A stretch of DNA of 64,000 bases. It comes from Spirosoma oryzicola. Its GTDB lineage: Bacteria; Bacteroidota; Bacteroidia; Cytophagales; Spirosomataceae. The stretch covers positions 72,744 through 136,743 of the forward strand of contig NZ_CP089545.1 of the NCBI RefSeq assembly GCF_021233055.1. Direction: 5' to 3'. The position numbers and the translations under genes were made by a program. Within the stretch, counting starts at the first letter, position 1. Every line of letters begins with the position of its first letter. Below are positions 2 to 7,580 of this stretch, piece after piece. Below the pieces are notes generated by a model. That model had not been told where the DNA came from and did not search any database. It worked only from the letters and a program-made list of their open reading frames with translations.

Positions 2-1267
2 CAGCTCATCGCCAGTCAGGGCGGGCTGGATGTACCAACAGTCAGTCGATTAGGACTGCAAATGGCCAGTGCGTTCAAGGCGATTCATCCGCAGGGTATC
101 GTTCACCGCGATATCAAACCGGAAAATATTCTGTACCGTCCCTTGCCTAGTGGTGAACTCCATTTTCTGTTAACGGATTTTGGCGTCGCCCGCCTGCACG
201 AGCAATCGACTACAATGACGGGGCAGTCACTAATGACCTACGAATACGCATCGCCCGAGCAGTTTAACGACCCAAAAGGCGTTGGCGTCGCAACGGATTA
301 TTACTCGTTAGGCGTGGTTCTGTACGAATGTCTGCATGGAAGCGTACCCTTTGCGCTGGATGATCATACGGGTATTGTCACGTTCATGAATAAAGTGCTG
401 ACGGAAGCACCGCCCGCCCTGCCCATTTCGTCGAACGATCAGGCCATTAGCCCATTCACGGAAGTATTACGGGGTTTATTGCAGAAGAAAGCCGCCGACC
501 GGCTAAGCGATCCGGATGAATTAACCTGGCTGATCAAGCAGGCTGAACTAGGCTATTTACAGACAAATCGGGCTCCTAAGGTCCCGACCTCCGCTGTAGA
601 GTCCGTAAAGACCACCCAAAGCCGGGAACCTGAAACGAATAAGGCTAACGTGGTAAACGCGGCCTTACCGGATGCAAAACCAACGCCACGATCCGCTTCT
701 CGTCCGCCAAAAAATGACGGGTTAAAATGGACTATCCTGGCTCTGGTTATCTTACTTGGTGTCGTCGGCCTGTACTTCGCCGTCCTCAAACCAAAAGCCA
801 GCCCGTCTACAAAGCTTGCCGATGTCCCAACCGCCACGGGCACCACCGCCGGAGGGACCGATGTGGCCGAAGAAACGGCGCGGCACCAACGGGAAGCCGA
901 GGAAGCCATCCGGCAGGAGCAACTCCGGCAGGAAGCGCTAGCCGCCGTTGACGGACTGGCGGTTAAGGTCAATGATTATCGGGTAGGCTTATTCGGTGGG
1001 ATCAAAAATGTCCAACTTCAGCTGAGCAATCCAAGCCCGGTTACGTTTTCATCGGTGGTGGTTAAGGTCAACTATTACAAAGACAATGGGGGTCTCTATA
1101 AAGCAGAAAAAGTGTATTTCAACAACGTAGGGCCTAATTCGTCGCTGATTGAAACCGCACCGAACAGCGATCGGGGAACCAAACTTACCTACAAAATCAT
1201 TGGGCATCAGTTTGCTCCTCCGCTGGATTCATTGATGAGTAAGGCTTCGGCAGACTCGTTACACTAA
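2..1267 (+). CDS. Membrane Ser/Thr protein kinase, 5' end outside window
   Basis: The reading frame is open from base 2, and the residues before the first Met (base 62) match the equivalent stretch of the next gene, so the true start lies upstream. Visible are the catalytic HRDIKPEN motif and the DFG motif of an Hanks-type kinase. A single transmembrane helix follows (about residues 222-242 counted from the Met at 62), then a charged, probably coiled-coil segment rich in Glu/Arg/Gln, and a C-terminal beta-rich domain of about 100 residues that would be periplasmic. The kinase part is nearly identical to that of the downstream gene, but the outer domains differ, which suggests duplication followed by change of the sensor part. 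It lies 7 bases upstream of the second kinase, so they are co-transcribed. By family it phosphorylates Ser/Thr on partner proteins; the targets are inferred only from context (SEDS-PBP and FHA proteins). Confidence 0.9.
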   Translation, partial: QLIASQGGLDVPTVSRLGLQMASAFKAIHPQGIVHRDIKPENILYRPLPSGELHFLLTDFGVARLHEQSTTMTGQSLMTYEYASPEQFNDPKGVGVATDYYSLGVVLYECLHGSVPFALDDHTGIVTFMNKVLTEAPPALPISSNDQAISPFTEVLRGLLQKKAADRLSDPDELTWLIKQAELGYLQTNRAPKVPTSAVESVKTTQSREPETNKANVVNAALPDAKPTPRSASRPPKNDGLKWTILALVILLGVVGLYFAVLKPKASPSTKLADVPTATGTTAGGTDVAEETARHQREAEEAIRQEQLRQEALAAVDGLAVKVNDYRVGLFGGIKNVQLQLSNPSPVTFSSVVVKVNYYKDNGGLYKAEKVYFNNVGPNSSLIETAPNSDRGTKLTYKIIGHQFAPPLDSLMSKASADSLH

Positions 1268-1274
1268 TTAATTT

Positions 1275-2555
1275 ATGCCAACAGTAAGTGTCAATACGCA
1301 TTTTCCGGGTTACGAAATTATTGGCGAACTGGGCCGGTCGAATGCCCGCGTGCTGAAAGCGCGTCATCTGGAAACGGGCGATTTGGTCGCGATCAAACAC
1401 TTCTCGCTCAATACCGATGCCGACACGCTTCGGCGGTTTAGGCTTGAATCGCAGTTGATGACCGACATCAACCATCCGAACGTCGTGCGGGTGCGGGAAG
1501 TGCAGCTGGACATGCCGATGCCGTTTATTGTCATGGAATGGATCGAAGGCGGCAATTTACGCACACTGCTCGGCGAGCAAGGCTACCTGGATGTATCCAA
1601 TACCATCCGACTGGGGCTGCAAATGGCCGAAGCCTTCAAGGTAATTCATCCACAGGGTATTGTCCACCGGGATATTAAGCCGGAAAACATTCTTTTTCGG
1701 CCCTTGCCCAGTGGCGAGATTCATTTTCTGTTGACCGATTTTGGCGTTGCCCGTCTGCACGAACAGTCGCAAACGATGACGGGTCAATCGCTGATGACCT
1801 ATGAATACGCATCGCCGGAGCAATTTGATAATCCACGGGGCGTCGACAAGGCCACCGATTACTATTCGCTGGGCGTGGTCCTGTACGAATGTCTGTCGGG
1901 GAAGGTGCCGTTTTCGATGACGGACAGTGCGGGTATCGCTTCGTTCATGGGGCATGTCCTGCGCACATCGCCACCTGCTTTACAGATACCTTCGCAACAG
2001 TATCTTCCCCCCAGTCTGGAAACGATCCTGGAATGGACATTAGCCAAAAATCCAGCCGAGCGGCTTAATGATGTCAATGAGTTGATCTTACTGCTGCGGC
2101 AAGCCAATGTCGAACAGCTACAGACTAGTCGTTCGGCGGATCGGCGGGTGCCCGTTTCATCGCGTACGGTGGCAGCCCCAGTACCGACTCCCCGACCGCT
2201 GGAAACCGTTGTGCCGGTGCCCGATGAAGAACCGGCCACCGGCACAAACAAGTGGCTTATCGGGTTAAGTGTTGCCATTGTAGCGGTGCTGCTGGTGCTG
2301 GCCGTTTTGTACAAAACGCACCACAAGGCGACCAGCACCGGAACCAATGTGGTACCCGATACGACAACTGTGGCGAATGATTCGACGGAGACCGAGACGA
2401 TGATGGAAGATACGACCGAGTCCTCATCCGATTACCCAGTCGAGGCAACAACCGATTCAACCAAAACAGAAAGTCCTTCGGAAACCGTTGCTGAGCCGCC
2501 CGCTGCCGTACCCGATTCATCGCGCACGGTCGTTGATTCAACCAAGTCGTTTTGA
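1275..2555 (+). CDS. Membrane Ser/Thr protein kinase (PknB-like)
   Basis: Complete Hanks-type kinase of 426 residues. The ATP-anchoring lysine is K41 in VAIKHF, the catalytic loop is HRDIKPEN (H131-D133), and DFG is at 155-157. The glycine-rich loop is odd: only the first glycine (G20) of the usual GxGxxG pattern is clear and the loop looks one residue short. A transmembrane helix at about 327-346 is followed by an outer tail of about 80 residues rich in Ser, Thr, Glu and Pro, with no recognisable domain. The upstream kinase is a close paralog with a different outer region. The gene ends 19 bases before the SEDS-PBP fusion gene, so the two are probably one operon. Phosphorylation of the neighbouring cell wall synthase or of the FHA protein is inferred from the locus layout. 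Confidence 0.93.
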   Translation: MPTVSVNTHFPGYEIIGELGRSNARVLKARHLETGDLVAIKHFSLNTDADTLRRFRLESQLMTDINHPNVVRVREVQLDMPMPFIVMEWIEGGNLRTLLGEQGYLDVSNTIRLGLQMAEAFKVIHPQGIVHRDIKPENILFRPLPSGEIHFLLTDFGVARLHEQSQTMTGQSLMTYEYASPEQFDNPRGVDKATDYYSLGVVLYECLSGKVPFSMTDSAGIASFMGHVLRTSPPALQIPSQQYLPPSLETILEWTLAKNPAERLNDVNELILLLRQANVEQLQTSRSADRRVPVSSRTVAAPVPTPRPLETVVPVPDEEPATGTNKWLIGLSVAIVAVLLVLAVLYKTHHKATSTGTNVVPDTTTVANDSTETETMMEDTTESSSDYPVEATTDSTKTESPSETVAEPPAAVPDSSRTVVDSTKSF

Positions 2556-2574
2556 TTAACCAAAAATCTTCTGC

Positions 2575-5500
2575 ATGAATATACCCTCTGGTCGGCCGTA
2601 TTTGCTGGGCGCATCAGTTATGCTGCTGCTCCTGTTCGGACGGCTGTTTATGAACCTGTCTCCGGCGCTAAATCAGGCTAAAGAAGCGTTAGCCAGCGGG
2701 CAGGCGTTAACCCTCGAATCAGGACTTAAATCTGCGTCTATCCAGCGCCTGCTTAATACGGGCAATTACTACAGTGACCCGAAGGACAGACTCCTGGTTG
2801 CCGATTCATTGAGCGCTAAACTTCGTCAACAGGGCTCGCCCGAAAATCTGGGAACGCTTAACAAACGGCTGTTTTTCGTGCAGGCTCCCGTGACGTGGCG
2901 TAGTCGAATTGGTGGTGTCGATTTTCAGAGTCGGTTGCGGGTATCCCGTCAGCAAATGGGTTTCGACTCGGTGCTGTACGTTCGCGAACTAACGAATCCG
3001 AAACCGTATCCCGCTACCGTTAGCGCTGGTAGCGGAACGGAGTCAATATCGGGTCGGGTTACGCGCGACGAAGAGCCGATGGCGGACGTACTGGTTCAGC
3101 TAAAGCGCCATCCCGCCACCGCCCAACCCGATACGCTGCCCGATCGGTTTACCTACGCCCGAACGGATGCCGATGGGACGTTTGCCTTTACGGGCCTGAC
3201 GGATGGCTCGGGGTATAGCGTGGTTCCGCTCAAGCCCGGTTTTGAGTTCGGCAGCCGACGGGGCACAAGCCATTTGACCCGTGATCAGTCGTACACGTTC
3301 ACGGGCCGTCAGCATCAACTGCGCCTGATTGGAACAACGGCGTATGGGCAGCTCAAGAACGACCATGCGTTTATGGTCCGTGCGCCCACCGCTTTTACGA
3401 TGCAGTTCTGGGCTATTGTTGGGCTGTTTATGCTGGCGTTTTGGGCCGTACAGGGCTTTTGGGATATCCGGCGCTTTCAACCCGACCCGTTGCTATTGCC
3501 GATCCTGATGCTGCTGACGGGCTTATCGGTCCTAACGCTGTTGGCCATTCAGGACCCATTACAGGACATGCTCTACGCCTGGCAAACGGTACAGGGTGTA
3601 GGGGTCGGCCTGGTTGGCCTGACGATTTTATCGCAGCTACCGATCGGGCGCTTTTACGCAGATTGGCGCTACGACTGGCTGTTTACGTTTCGGAACCGTA
3701 CTTCCGTACAGTTGTCGGGCTGGACGTGGCTCGTGCTAGCACTTGGGCTGGCGACGCTGACGTTGCTTGTTGGCTCGGGGCCGGAGGGAAGTGGTGTACG
3801 CGTCAATTTGTCAATCCTGGGGCTGAGCTTTCAACCCAGTGAAATTACCAAATACCTATTACTGATTTTCTTTGCAGGGTTCTTTGCCGCCAATGAGCAA
3901 CAGATTCGGCAACTACCCGATCTGCGCTGGCGGTTTCAGGTCAGTTTGGGAGCGCTGGCCGGAGCGGGGTTCCTGATGCTGCTCTACCTCCTGCTGGGCG
4001 ATATGGGTCCGGCGCTGGTCGTTTGTTTTACGTTCCTGCTTTTTTACAGCATCGCCCGGGGAAATCTGCCGCTAACACTGGCAACAGGTTTTGGCTACGG
4101 CGTAGCGCTCTGGTTATTGCCCGGCTGGGCCGCTACGTTACTCAGCTTAGTGGTTCTGATCGGGTATATGTACGGGCAGGGCGAGGCCCGTTCGCGGACT
4201 TGGTTGGGTTGGGCCGCTTTGTTTACCGAAGCCCCCGTATTGCTGCTTCTGGTGATGGCAATGTTTGCGTTTGGCGATCTGTTGCCGTTCGTTGGAAACC
4301 GGCTGGCTGACCGGAAAGCGATGTGGCTTAGTCCCTGGAACAATGACGTGTATGGCGGTGATCATCTGGCGCACGGCTTCTGGGCCTTGTCGACTGGTGG
4401 TTGGACGGGGCAAGGACTCGGAAGAGGGTTGGCGGGTACCATGCCAGCTGCCCATACCGATATGATTCTGCCGAGCGTGGGCGAAGAACTGGGCGGGTTT
4501 GGTCTCGTAGCCGTTTTCCTGCTGATGGGTGTACTACTGCATCGGATTTTTTTGCACGCCCGGCGAGCGGGTCAGCCCTTTAGCTTCTTTCTGGTAGCGG
4601 GTATCGCCATTGCGACCGGTGTTCAGTTTTTGATTATTGCGGGCGGCTCCATCGGGTTGTTACCCCTGACGGGAATCAGCGTGCCGTTCCTGAGTTACGG
4701 CAAGATTTCACTGATCATCAACCTGATGGCTATGGGCGTTGTGTTTAGCGTCGCCAATCGGCCGGGGCAGTTGGAACAACGCCAGTACCTGGAGAAGCAC
4801 TACGACAGGGTCCTGATGGCCGGTATCGCCGGGTTTCTGATCGGAGTGTTGATTCTGATTGGTCGTTTGTTACCAATTGTCGGGTGGCGGGGCAATGAGT
4901 ATATCGTTCGTCCGGCTCGGGTGGTGACCCGCTACGGCGATCCTGTATACAGCTACAACCCCCGCATCGAGCGGCTAACCCGCGTGCTGGCGGCAGGCAC
5001 GGTCTACGACCGGAAGGGTCTGGTACTGGCAACCAGTTCACCCGAACGGGTTACGCAGCAGTCGGCACAACTCCGCCAAAGTGGGTTAACATCGGATCAA
5101 CTTCAGACGCTCACGCACAAGCGATTGCAACGGTATTACCCATTTGGTGAGCATCTGTTTTTCTGGACCGGTGATTTGAATACGCAACTTTTCTGGGGAC
5201 AAAGCAATGGGTATTACGCCGAAGCTACCCATTTCAGCGAACTGCGCGGCTTCAACAGTCGTCCCCGTAAAACAACGCTTGTGGCCACCGACTACCAGGC
5301 CGATCGCTTTAGCCCGCCGGTTCAGCAAACGCGTACGCTATCCGTTTACGACTACAGCGAACTGGCTCCCGCTCTACGGGCTGGAATCGACAGCCGTGAA
5401 GTAACCGACCGGAAAGCCCAGAACCGCGATATCAAGCTGAGTCTCGATGCGGAGTTGCAAGTTGCGTTACAGAAAGGGCTGGCTAAATCGGAGTACAACG

Positions 5501-6546
5501 ACAAGCGTCTTTCGGTGGTCGTGCTCAATGCGGGATCGGGCGATGTACTGGCGTCAGCGACTTACCCTTTGCCCAATCTTAAAACGCCCGATGTTATGCT
5601 GCTGTCAGACCGGGATCGGCTTGAACTACCGTATCTGGTCACCGAGCGCGATTTGGGCATGACCTATCCAACAGCCCCTGGCTCGACGGCTAAAATTCTG
5701 ACGGCAATGGCTGCGTTTAATAAAGTAGGTGCCTCGGCATCATCCGTTAGCTACCCAATTTCGTGTCAGGAGATCATCCGACGGGGTGCGCGGGAATCTG
5801 AACCCTGCGGAGAAACGGTCGATATGCGTAAGGCCATTGTTCGGTCGAGCAACGTTTATTTTATCCGAATGGCGAACGACAAAGCGCTGGATACTGAACT
5901 GGCCGATCTGTATCTAGCTACGGGTATGAACGTCGATCTGATTGGTGGCTATTCTTTTTCGGATACGCATACCGACGCGGAACAGGTTCAGATCCGGCAG
6001 CATTGGCGCGATTCGACATTTGCGGTCCGCCGGAAATTGTACCAGAGTACGCAATACCCGAGACGCTACCGGAGTGAATTTTCGGGGCTGGCCTGGGGAC
6101 AGGGCCAATTGACAGCAACGCCCGTATCGATGGCGCGAATGGCCGGGGCCATTGCAAACCAGGGTATCCTGCAACCGTCGCGTTATGTACTGGATAAAGC
6201 GGGTAAACCACAAACGATCAGCACCGGCAAGTCCGTGGCTCGCCGAGCGGATTATGCCGAGCAGCTACAGGAATTTATGATTGAACAGTCGAACCCATCG
6301 GAGGGGCGGGCTAAGATCAGCGTCGCGCGGGTGGCTGGTAAAACCGGTACACCCGAACGGATCGTACAGGGTGTAAAGCGGAATGATGGGTGGTACGTAT
6401 TTTTTGCCCCTACACCCGACGGTCGGTCGCATACAGTGGTTGCGGTACGGATCGAGTTGGGTCAATCCTCCGCAGATGCCGTCAACCTGGCGAACACCGT
6501 CGTAGCCCCTATCTTGAAAGAACGTAATTATTTAGGAAGCTTTTAA
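2575..6546 (+). CDS. SEDS glycosyltransferase (FtsW/RodA) fused to class B penicillin-binding protein
   Basis: A 1323-residue protein that appears to combine both enzymes of peptidoglycan synthesis. After an N-terminal membrane helix (about 5-22) comes a periplasmic region of about 240 residues; residues 157-230 look like a carboxypeptidase-regulatory-type beta sandwich. Multiple membrane helices from about 270 to 735 form the SEDS domain, with the typical motif AHTDMILPSVGEELGGFG; D629 is the probable catalytic aspartate of lipid II polymerisation. Another helix (about 743-765) leads to the transpeptidase domain with SxxK (S1037-K1040), SxN (S1091-N1093) and KTGT (1256-1259), all intact. SEDS proteins and class B PBPs are normally separate partners. 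The frame is continuous, with no sign of a frameshift. It follows two Ser/Thr kinases and precedes an FHA protein, so its activity is probably controlled by phosphorylation (inference). Whether it serves division or elongation is not clear from sequence. Confidence 0.95.
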   Translation: MNIPSGRPYLLGASVMLLLLFGRLFMNLSPALNQAKEALASGQALTLESGLKSASIQRLLNTGNYYSDPKDRLLVADSLSAKLRQQGSPENLGTLNKRLFFVQAPVTWRSRIGGVDFQSRLRVSRQQMGFDSVLYVRELTNPKPYPATVSAGSGTESISGRVTRDEEPMADVLVQLKRHPATAQPDTLPDRFTYARTDADGTFAFTGLTDGSGYSVVPLKPGFEFGSRRGTSHLTRDQSYTFTGRQHQLRLIGTTAYGQLKNDHAFMVRAPTAFTMQFWAIVGLFMLAFWAVQGFWDIRRFQPDPLLLPILMLLTGLSVLTLLAIQDPLQDMLYAWQTVQGVGVGLVGLTILSQLPIGRFYADWRYDWLFTFRNRTSVQLSGWTWLVLALGLATLTLLVGSGPEGSGVRVNLSILGLSFQPSEITKYLLLIFFAGFFAANEQQIRQLPDLRWRFQVSLGALAGAGFLMLLYLLLGDMGPALVVCFTFLLFYSIARGNLPLTLATGFGYGVALWLLPGWAATLLSLVVLIGYMYGQGEARSRTWLGWAALFTEAPVLLLLVMAMFAFGDLLPFVGNRLADRKAMWLSPWNNDVYGGDHLAHGFWALSTGGWTGQGLGRGLAGTMPAAHTDMILPSVGEELGGFGLVAVFLLMGVLLHRIFLHARRAGQPFSFFLVAGIAIATGVQFLIIAGGSIGLLPLTGISVPFLSYGKISLIINLMAMGVVFSVANRPGQLEQRQYLEKHYDRVLMAGIAGFLIGVLILIGRLLPIVGWRGNEYIVRPARVVTRYGDPVYSYNPRIERLTRVLAAGTVYDRKGLVLATSSPERVTQQSAQLRQSGLTSDQLQTLTHKRLQRYYPFGEHLFFWTGDLNTQLFWGQSNGYYAEATHFSELRGFNSRPRKTTLVATDYQADRFSPPVQQTRTLSVYDYSELAPALRAGIDSREVTDRKAQNRDIKLSLDAELQVALQKGLAKSEYNDKRLSVVVLNAGSGDVLASATYPLPNLKTPDVMLLSDRDRLELPYLVTERDLGMTYPTAPGSTAKILTAMAAFNKVGASASSVSYPISCQEIIRRGARESEPCGETVDMRKAIVRSSNVYFIRMANDKALDTELADLYLATGMNVDLIGGYSFSDTHTDAEQVQIRQHWRDSTFAVRRKLYQSTQYPRRYRSEFSGLAWGQGQLTATPVSMARMAGAIANQGILQPSRYVLDKAGKPQTISTGKSVARRADYAEQLQEFMIEQSNPSEGRAKISVARVAGKTGTPERIVQGVKRNDGWYVFFAPTPDGRSHTVVAVRIELGQSSADAVNLANTVVAPILKERNYLGSF

Positions 6547-6551
6547 CGATT

Positions 6552-6637
6552 TTTTTGTCATCCCGACGTAGGAGGGAACTTCGGTAATAATTATAATTCT
6601 ATTGGCAACCAGAGGTCCATCGTCGGAATGACAAAAA
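6552..6637. repeat. Dispersed palindromic element, copy 1
   Basis: Imperfect inverted repeat with arms of about 25 bases starting TTTTTGTCATCCCGACG, separated by an AT-rich centre. It lies between the SEDS-PBP gene and the FHA gene. A better preserved copy of the same arms is at 47651-47740. It could fold as RNA and act as a terminator or processing site, but its recurrence points to a small REP/MITE-like repeat. Confidence 0.75.
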
Positions 6638-6692
6638 GGCTGATTTCAAGTTTGTTGTGAAATGTTAAGCCTATTTCAACACTCAATGCATA

Positions 6693-7580
6693 ATGAGCCT
6701 AATCGATAAGGTTAAAAATTTGTTCGGGTTAGCCTCGACGGACGAGCAGCCTATAGCGTCCACCAGTCGGCCAGGTGAACCGGTTTCCGTTACGCCGACA
6801 TCCACGACGACCGGGCCTCCGCCAGCCGCTCAGGTACGGGAGCAGGTCATGCGGTTTATCATCGGTAAACTACGGGCTTACCAAAACGAACCGGACACCG
6901 CTCCGGCTGGAATTCGACTGTCTGTTTTATGTACTAACCCAGCGGATGAAGAGTTATACCGGGTCGTTCTGTGGACGAATCAGCCAGGAAAATTTGAGGC
7001 CGAACTGTCTCGTCAATTGGCTGACAATTACATCACGTTGCCCAAAAACTGGCAGTTTACGTATACCTTTTTCACGGACACATTACCCGACACTACATAC
7101 CGGGAAGGGAATTTGGGACTGGTTGTCGTTGATCGGTCAAAACCGGATAACGCCCCCCTTCTCGCCAGGGTGACAGCTTTAGTAGGGCAGTTGGAACAGA
7201 CGGAATACATTCTTGATTCAGCTCAGAAAACGACGTTCTGCATCGGGCGCGGCCGTACCACCCAAACGGCGTCAGGACGCGTTCGAACGAATGATATTGT
7301 CGTCCTAAATGAAGAAGACCCCAGTTATGACGCAGCGAAAGGGGCCGGAAATGGAGCTGTTAGTCGGGCGCATGCGACGATTCGCTTCGATCCCGCTCAG
7401 AAACGGTACGTACTCCTTGTCGATCCGGGTGGACTGCCTGCCGGGGGCAATAAAACCAAACTCATACACCCGGATGATTCAATAGAGCGGGCCGATATTG
7501 CAGGAATGGGCTATCCCCTCCAAAACGGAGATCAGATTGAATTGGGTGGCGAAGTCACGCTCTTTTTTGAATTACTGTAA
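6693..7580 (+). CDS. FHA-domain protein
   Basis: A 295-residue protein with no signal peptide or membrane helix, so probably cytoplasmic. The C-terminal half (about 175-295) is a forkhead-associated domain: IGRG at 184-187, then SRAH at S224-H227, the residues that hold phosphothreonine peptides in this family, and a late asparagine/glycine region before the last strands. There is a long insert between the first strands and the SRxH loop (about 190-222). The N-terminal 35 residues are Pro/Thr/Ser-rich, a possible phosphorylated tail; residues 45-165 are an unrecognised alpha/beta region. Two Ser/Thr kinases and a cell wall synthase lie just upstream, the classic company of FHA proteins in actinobacteria, so it probably reads the kinases' phospho-mark. 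Confidence 0.87.
   Translation: MSLIDKVKNLFGLASTDEQPIASTSRPGEPVSVTPTSTTTGPPPAAQVREQVMRFIIGKLRAYQNEPDTAPAGIRLSVLCTNPADEELYRVVLWTNQPGKFEAELSRQLADNYITLPKNWQFTYTFFTDTLPDTTYREGNLGLVVVDRSKPDNAPLLARVTALVGQLEQTEYILDSAQKTTFCIGRGRTTQTASGRVRTNDIVVLNEEDPSYDAAKGAGNGAVSRAHATIRFDPAQKRYVLLVDPGGLPAGGNKTKLIHPDDSIERADIAGMGYPLQNGDQIELGGEVTLFFELL

Follow-up and report, generated by a model that had tools for sequence, protein, structure and literature searches.

The sequence analysed here (the window) is a stretch of 64,000 nucleotides from Spirosoma oryzicola (assembly GCF_021233055.1, contig NZ_CP089545.1, positions 72,744 to 136,743), and our subject is a run of six co-directional genes on its forward strand that encode an FHA protein (FHA1), a PP2C phosphatase, two Ser/Thr kinases (kinase 1 and kinase 2), a single-chain fusion of a SEDS protein with a class B penicillin-binding protein (PBP), and a second FHA protein (FHA2). 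The last four genes, counted from the C-terminal part of kinase 1, lie inside the window at 2-7580, and FHA1 and PP2C lie upstream of it. Upstream coordinates are given on the stretch L004, where the window position equals the L004 position minus 10000. An original prediction, made from the letters alone, had placed kinases, a SEDS-PBP synthase and an FHA reader in one co-directional run, and Pfam matches and open reading frames (ORFs) show all of these over the proposed span. Two details needed revision: SEDS and PBP are both present but as one protein of 1323 amino acids instead of two genes, and the run, whose predicted parts do lie at 2-7580, begins before the window with FHA1 and PP2C. 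The PP2C gene had itself been anticipated upstream of base 1, and was found there.

L004:7024-8025, +, FHA1, 333 amino acids (Pfam FHA 2e-4)
L004:8281-9714, +, PP2C phosphatase, 477 amino acids (Pfam PP2C_2 9e-10), one transmembrane (TM) helix
L004:9714-11267, +, kinase 1, full gene, 517 amino acids, start 287 bases ahead of the window edge
2..1267, +, kinase 1, C-terminal 421 amino acids (Pkinase 7e-45)
1275..2555, +, kinase 2, 426 amino acids (Pkinase 2e-46)
2575..6546, +, SEDS/class B PBP fusion, 1323 amino acids, single ORF (FTSW_RODA_SPOVE 4e-39 and Transpeptidase 2e-25)
6693..7580, +, FHA2, 295 amino acids, soluble (FHA 0.01; 16.7 bits against a cut-off of 20.7)

From PP2C through kinase 1, kinase 2 and the fusion to FHA2 the intergenic gaps are -1, 7, 19 and 146 bases, the PP2C stop sharing one base with the kinase 1 start; 255 bases separate FHA1 from PP2C.

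Conservation of the gene run in Bacteroidota

The gene run is not a product of chance, since 69 of 79 related loci keep the complete set of FHA1, PP2C, kinase, fusion and FHA2. These loci come from a scan of named genomes, being drawn from the best 80 of 209 candidate stretches, and a part was counted if it matched in BLAST at 1e-4 and lay no more than 9 kb away in the same orientation. FHA2 is present in all 79, PP2C in 75, FHA1 in 73 and at least one kinase in 72, and some of the incomplete loci begin at a contig end. Fusions from Spirosoma, Larkinella, Fibrisoma, Fibrella, Rudanella and two other genera share 64-89% identity with that of the window in the best segment, and those of Pedobacter, Mucilaginibacter, Segetibacter, Ferruginibacter and others share 38-42% over most of its length. 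The carrier genera are mostly soil and freshwater bacteria. The order in Spirosomaceae is mostly FHA1-PP2C-STK-STK-fusion-FHA2 (19 loci; STK, Ser/Thr kinase), and that of the others is (STK)-FHA1-PP2C-fusion-FHA2-(STK).

Because only a few candidates are scored in each genome, the following counts are lower bounds. A full-length fusion was found in 15 of 291 genomes of the window's order, all of them in its own family, and in 9 of 11 genomes of its genus, the window's own counted. The suggestion that the locus might be kept among Cytophagales holds for this one family, but was too narrow, as other classes of the phylum have the fusion too. Among 150 family genomes the fusion was found in 37 and FHA1 in 38; all 37 carry both, and the additional FHA1 belongs to G821. 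Fusion and FHA1 lie within 10 kb on one contig in 33 of the 37; they are 80 kb apart in G838 and on different contigs in G776, G227 and G784, and G836 and G841 hold a second adjacent pair. Across the phylum, a profile of the fusion's N-terminal part matched in 15 of 395 genomes, and none of 47 matching plasmid records covers 80% of the fusion. The 79 loci, together with the searches of order, phylum and family, rule out a run confined to a single genome.

Two loci deserve separate mention. In L029, from a record titled Flavobacterium sp. SUN052, the fusion is 65% identical to that of the window, FHA2 stands several ORFs off, and neither FHA1 nor PP2C nor a kinase was detected in the vicinity; the record title may misname the organism. 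In L027, from Spirosoma telluris, FHA1, PP2C and SEDS/PBP each take up two ORFs and the kinases three in a row, which could reflect duplication or split reading frames.

The fusion, the kinases, the phosphatase and the FHA proteins

The fusion is the third SEDS gene of the window's genome, beside two others. Ahead of its SEDS part it carries an additional TM helix and a periplasmic domain, in which helices (residues ~53-140) are followed by a carboxypeptidase-regulatory-like beta-sandwich (~153-248); the model has a pLDDT of 86.8, and a fold search with the fusion's N-terminal part matches beta-sandwich domains. The SEDS and PBP profile scores fall under the NCBIfam cut-offs, and 2 of the 79 loci (L027 and L043) are without a single ORF of more than 1250 amino acids, as might be expected of an inactive or relic gene carried along by a signalling operon. 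We consider such a relic very improbable, given that the other 77 loci do hold one such ORF and that the active-site columns are conserved. In an alignment of 78 rows (these 77 loci and the window, with L027 and L043 left out), the SEDS columns A626, H627, T628, D629 and E637 and the PBP columns S1037, K1040, S1091, N1093, K1256 and G1258 are kept in at least 97% of rows, down to relatives of ~40% identity. We take these columns to be the SEDS catalytic loop and the SxxK, SxN and KTG motifs of the PBP; the third KTG position is T in 71 rows and S in 7.

Both kinases of the window have the Hanks-type lysine, HRD and DFG motifs. Hydropathy predicts for kinase 1 one TM helix (~residues 340-358) and a periplasmic tail, and its best NCBIfam match is PknB_PASTA_kin (2e-58, under the cut-off). 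Kinase 2, with the motifs HRDIKPEN and DFG, has one predicted TM helix (~327-345) and a tail rich in Thr, Ser and Glu; its nearest relative of solved structure is PknA (2.6e-32). The PP2C protein consists, like PstP, of a cytoplasmic phosphatase domain and one TM helix (~294-312). Its best NCBIfam match is Stp1/IreP (3e-56, under its cut-off), and it contains DGVGG, GDTRLY, SDGLTD and GGNDNIT, which we take to be the usual PP2C motifs. Its tail past the TM helix (L004:9217-9711, ~165 residues) looks repeat-like by eye and matches no Pfam family. Four Segetibacter loci, L044 (14981-20549), L043, L049 and L060, carry three kinase genes in tandem behind FHA2, and the first of these in L044 has the catalytic loop HGDIKSNN, not HRD.

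FHA2 joins an N-terminal domain of unknown kind to a C-terminal FHA domain, and no TM helix is found in it by hydropathy. All 41 aligned rows, that of the window among them, share residues GR186, S224, H227 and N253, which are presumably those that contact phosphothreonine (pThr). FhaB is a short FHA protein with an N-terminal TM helix, a description that fits the Nocardia ORF. An assignment of FHA2 as FhaB was dropped, as FHA2 is without a TM helix and comparison of its N-domain with FHA1 and with FhaA gave no match (0.2%, E 0.2, against three actinobacterial FhaA N-domains). The idea that FHA2 clearly shares the N-domain of FHA1 was dropped as well: the full profiles match at 45% (E 2e-4), the cut-out N-domains at only 0.1%. 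No substantial match among solved structures came from the profiles of FHA1 or FHA2. FHA1 was modelled with modest confidence (mean pLDDT 75, pTM 0.47), and fold searches with this model were filled by FHA domains. The alignments A1, A2, A3 and A4 used in this work have 35, 41, 33 and 7 rows.

Relation to the actinobacterial locus

Our analysis suggests that the locus is probably a phospho-switched, single-chain peptidoglycan synthase and a variant, homologous in part, of the module known from Actinobacteria. The annotated locus of Actinomyces oris (L194) reads FhaA-FHA-PP2C-RodA-PBP2-STK-PknB and bears out the original prediction that the part list is that of the actinobacterial locus. Tsukamurella (L188) has the same part list, with an unannotated gap of ~1.5 kb at the place of PP2C, and the order in Nocardia (L168) agrees by ORFs and BLAST. 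In Mycobacterium tuberculosis the order is fhaA-fhaB-pstP-rodA-pbpA-pknA-pknB. The Bacteroidota locus resembles these in being co-directional and in having an FhaA-like protein first, a membrane PP2C, SEDS followed by class B PBP, membrane kinases, and a SEDS in the same broad tree group. However, SEDS and PBP are one protein with an additional N-terminal periplasmic domain, the second FHA protein comes after the synthase and has no TM helix, and the kinases are without PASTA and vary in position and lineage. As PASTA domains and an FhaB are both absent, this is not a complete actinobacterial locus, but neither is it an ordinary neighbourhood; it is a variant that probably works like that locus and probably shares at least part of its ancestry.

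Distant relatives bear on this ancestry. In another class of the phylum the fusion was found in 7 of 244 genomes. G320 has the order FHA1-PP2C-fusion-FHA2, G687 has FHA1-PP2C-STK-fusion followed by the contig end, and G679 has fusion-FHA2 and FHA1-PP2C on two contigs. In G463, and in no other of the seven, a single ORF of 1384 amino acids between FHA1 and FHA2 contains PP2C (23-204), SEDS (504-834) and transpeptidase (1073-1372), which is the actinobacterial pstP-rodA-pbpA order. The ORF has no internal stop, and the genome is one contig of 4.8 Mb. One TM helix is predicted between PP2C and the periplasmic part, and the phosphatase would therefore stay inside the cell.

The FHA1 proteins of this class match FhaA_N above the cut-off in L162 (3.3e-9), L161 (4.9e-6), L163 (6.3e-6) and L132 (9.7e-6), and under it in L125 (7e-5), L126 and L165 (both 0.0011) and L127 (0.0052). 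L163 (3547-5821) is a second FhaA_N-FHA copy, followed by PP2C, on another contig of G417 and not beside the fusion. A six-frame FhaA_N search of the 395 phylum genomes gave 4 positives (3 above the cut-off), each carrying the fusion, and 1 of 14 control genomes, Corynebacterium glutamicum, was positive. Over the full length, FHA1 of the window type (35 relatives) matches the distant FHA1 at 97.8% in hhalign (E 6.5e-13), and the distant N-domain matches the three actinobacterial FhaA N-domains at 11% (E 0.0007). Because this full-length match leads to FHA1 proteins that bear FhaA_N, but the direct comparison given below is weak, we read FHA1 as FhaA-like through a bridge of distant relatives, and not directly. 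The FHA1 protein of the intermediate L129 gave no Pfam match, and a search of solved structures with the distant FHA1 profile returned mostly FHA domains.

Several further features were seen in this class. The protein at the FHA2 position in G320 (L126:13435-14805) has a Swt1-like HEPN domain (PF18731, 1.5e-25) ahead of FHA. Ser/Thr kinases with C-terminal WD40 repeats (L126:698-3127 and L127:1604-4117) lie ~4 kb ahead of FHA1 in two of the distant genomes. G417 contains a second, diverged SEDS/PBP fusion (L128:5165-9088).

Trees were built from small, hand-picked sets (37 SEDS, 29 PBP, 15 PP2C and 22 kinase rows), and for several rows the tree program warned that branches were long or composition uneven. 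In the SEDS tree a single clade (100/100) unites the 16 fused rows, and these, six actinobacterial RodA and a Monoglobus SEDS are split (100/99) from 14 other rows, which include the FtsW and RodA of Bacteroidota and E. coli. Joining the fused SEDS with Bacteroidota FtsW or RodA is rejected (approximately unbiased test, p-AU 0.014 and 0.0004, respectively), and with it the candidate origin by duplication of a resident FtsW or RodA gene. In the PBP tree the fused clade again has 100/100, and its grouping with both actinobacterial and Monoglobus rows is not rejected (p-AU 0.165). In the PP2C tree eleven locus-type proteins cluster against two actinobacterial ones (97/97).

A number of results weigh against our reading of the locus. 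The fused and actinobacterial SEDS form an exclusive pair at only 72/44, with long-branch and composition warnings; a union of the fused PBP with actinobacterial PbpA alone is rejected (p-AU 0.0017), and one with Bacteroidota PBP2 is borderline (p-AU 0.054). FHA1 of the window and all of its 35 relatives are without an FhaA_N match; its N-domain alone compares with the distant FHA1 at 59% (E 1.3e-5) and with a profile of the three actinobacterial FhaA N-domains at 4% (E 0.003), and its pThr site is without the GR arginine in the consensus and degenerate in the window's lineage. Neither kinase has a Pfam match to PASTA, even with E values as high as 1 admitted. In the kinase tree the Spirosomaceae proteins and those from Pedobacter and Mucilaginibacter fall into separate groups, and the rest has long branches and no clear branching order; the kinase slot therefore changes between lineages. 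Finally, no PP2C or kinase was found by BLAST in the ~20 kb fetched around L125, L132 and L161 (one distant genus; genomes G303, G324 and G417), which have the order FHA1-fusion-FHA2.

Could the likeness then be convergent, with local kinases, PP2C and FHA proteins brought beside a SEDS/PBP fusion that shares no ancestry with the actinobacterial cluster? The kinases without PASTA that differ between lineages, the PBP half that does not pair exclusively with actinobacterial PbpA and the N-domain of FHA2, unlike FhaA, would all agree with such an assembly, and FHA-like, kinase and PP2C-like genes cluster, by eye, elsewhere in the same genome. We nevertheless find convergence unlikely. FhaA_N-FHA, rare in the phylum (4 of 395), stands in distant FHA1 beside the fusion, with PP2C between them in two genomes; the SEDS half lies apart from Bacteroidota FtsW and RodA, with the FHA-linked SEDS of Actinobacteria and Monoglobus; and the PP2C-SEDS-PBP order is the same. 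The original prediction of a parallel system stands insofar as the locus lies outside Actinobacteria, but the FhaA_N of distant FHA1 and the place of the SEDS beside actinobacterial RodA and Bacillota SEDS make an independent origin doubtful.

The actinobacterial locus and its part in growth are treated in the available portions of PMC6554272, PMC3989709 and PMC11898655. The first of these, in the portion available, names as carriers Actinobacteria and, for pknB-fhaA, also a subset of Firmicutes; Bacteroidota are not named there. Natural SEDS-PBP fusions are noted in the accessible text of PMC10449877, which cites the Rhodococcus RHA1 genome. The Rhodococcus plasmid fusion likewise has SEDS and class B PBP in one ORF, but is 946 amino acids long as annotated, takes a separate place in the SEDS and PBP trees and is annotated with neither a kinase nor a PP2C or FHA gene within ~8 kb of it. 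Monoglobus (Bacillota) has an FHA gene directly ahead of SEDS and PBP, with its SEDS on the side of the fused proteins and RodA, but the two are unfused and no kinase or PP2C is annotated in the 16 kb shown. The RodA-PBP2 elongasome and the FtsW-FtsI divisome are alike in the two activities expected from the conserved motifs, and differ in that the fusion is a third lineage. The accessible parts of PMC8262863 and PMC6207328 hold nothing further on such a locus, and a literature search, weak evidence since preprints and most subscription papers lay outside its scope, found no description of it in Bacteroidota.

Proposed control of the synthase

If the locus is a phospho-switched synthase, it would supply the cell with a third, dedicated peptidoglycan synthase, in which one polypeptide both polymerises (SEDS) and crosslinks (class B PBP), and whose gating or placement would be under reversible Ser/Thr phosphorylation. 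The periplasmic tails of the membrane kinases may sense the state of the wall or envelope, and the kinases would act on cytoplasmic targets, to begin with most likely on their own activation loop and juxtamembrane segment, with the membrane PP2C undoing this phosphorylation beside the synthase. FHA2, as a canonical pThr reader, and FHA1, as an FhaA-like scaffold, could then recruit or gate the synthase according to the phospho-state. The core of FHA1, PP2C, SEDS and perhaps PBP would be homologous to actinobacterial fhaA-pstP-rodA-pbpA, with kinases that differ between lineages. We infer the reversible phosphorylation from the kinases, phosphatase, readers and synthase being kept together and from the phosphatase being once fused to the synthase; phosphorylation itself, sensing, the FHA partners and the synthase as regulated target are all predictions from sequence.

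By a crude topology, no column with Thr in at least 80% of the 78 fusions lies clearly in a cytoplasmic loop, Thr-rich columns falling mostly in membrane or periplasmic parts, and the Thr of the SEDS-PBP linker, the majority residue in the fusions, is Gln (732) in the window. Kinase activation loops or the FHA proteins are therefore likelier first targets than the synthase. Alternatively, the synthase may be genuine while the phospho-genes act on something else, such as lipid II supply or envelope stress, and stand beside it as part of one regulon instead of controlling it directly. In line with this, the FhaA/PknB targets given for M. tuberculosis in the available portions of PMC6554272 and PMC3989709 are MviN/MurJ and CwlM, not RodA or PbpA. 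We regard this alternative as rather unlikely, as PP2C is fused in frame to the synthase in G463 and the fusion keeps FHA1 and FHA2 on either side even in loci where neither PP2C nor a kinase was detected nearby. A broader hypothesis, possible though somewhat doubtful, is that an FhaA-PP2C-SEDS-PBP module, shared with Actinobacteria and some Bacillota, was ancestral to the Bacteroidota single-chain synthases, and that PP2C acts directly on or at the synthase, so that this control would be ancient or laterally spread, with different sensor kinases plugged in.

Given a Bacteroidota cluster so much like the actinobacterial one, the control of wall synthesis by phosphorylation may be of earlier origin, or more mobile, than the literature says. 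In Actinobacteria, to our knowledge, it is still an open question on which members of the fhaA-pknB cluster the kinases and FHA proteins act to control wall growth. Here much of the module is found in Gram-negatives that, as shown for the window's genome, keep two other SEDS genes, so the cell might perhaps survive a deletion of this accessory module. Having both activities, and in G463 also the phosphatase, on one polypeptide would offer a simple system for direct phospho-switching of a SEDS-PBP synthase.

A second phospho-signalling run, recognised mostly by eye, lies in the same genome at L005:4874-12021 (contig C1, ~5.405-5.412 Mb). It comprises two FHA-like genes, a PP2C-like gene, a caspase-like peptidase, a kinase (Pkinase 2.6e-50) and a repeat protein, and lies upstream of two tandem GTPase genes that we presume to be era and der.

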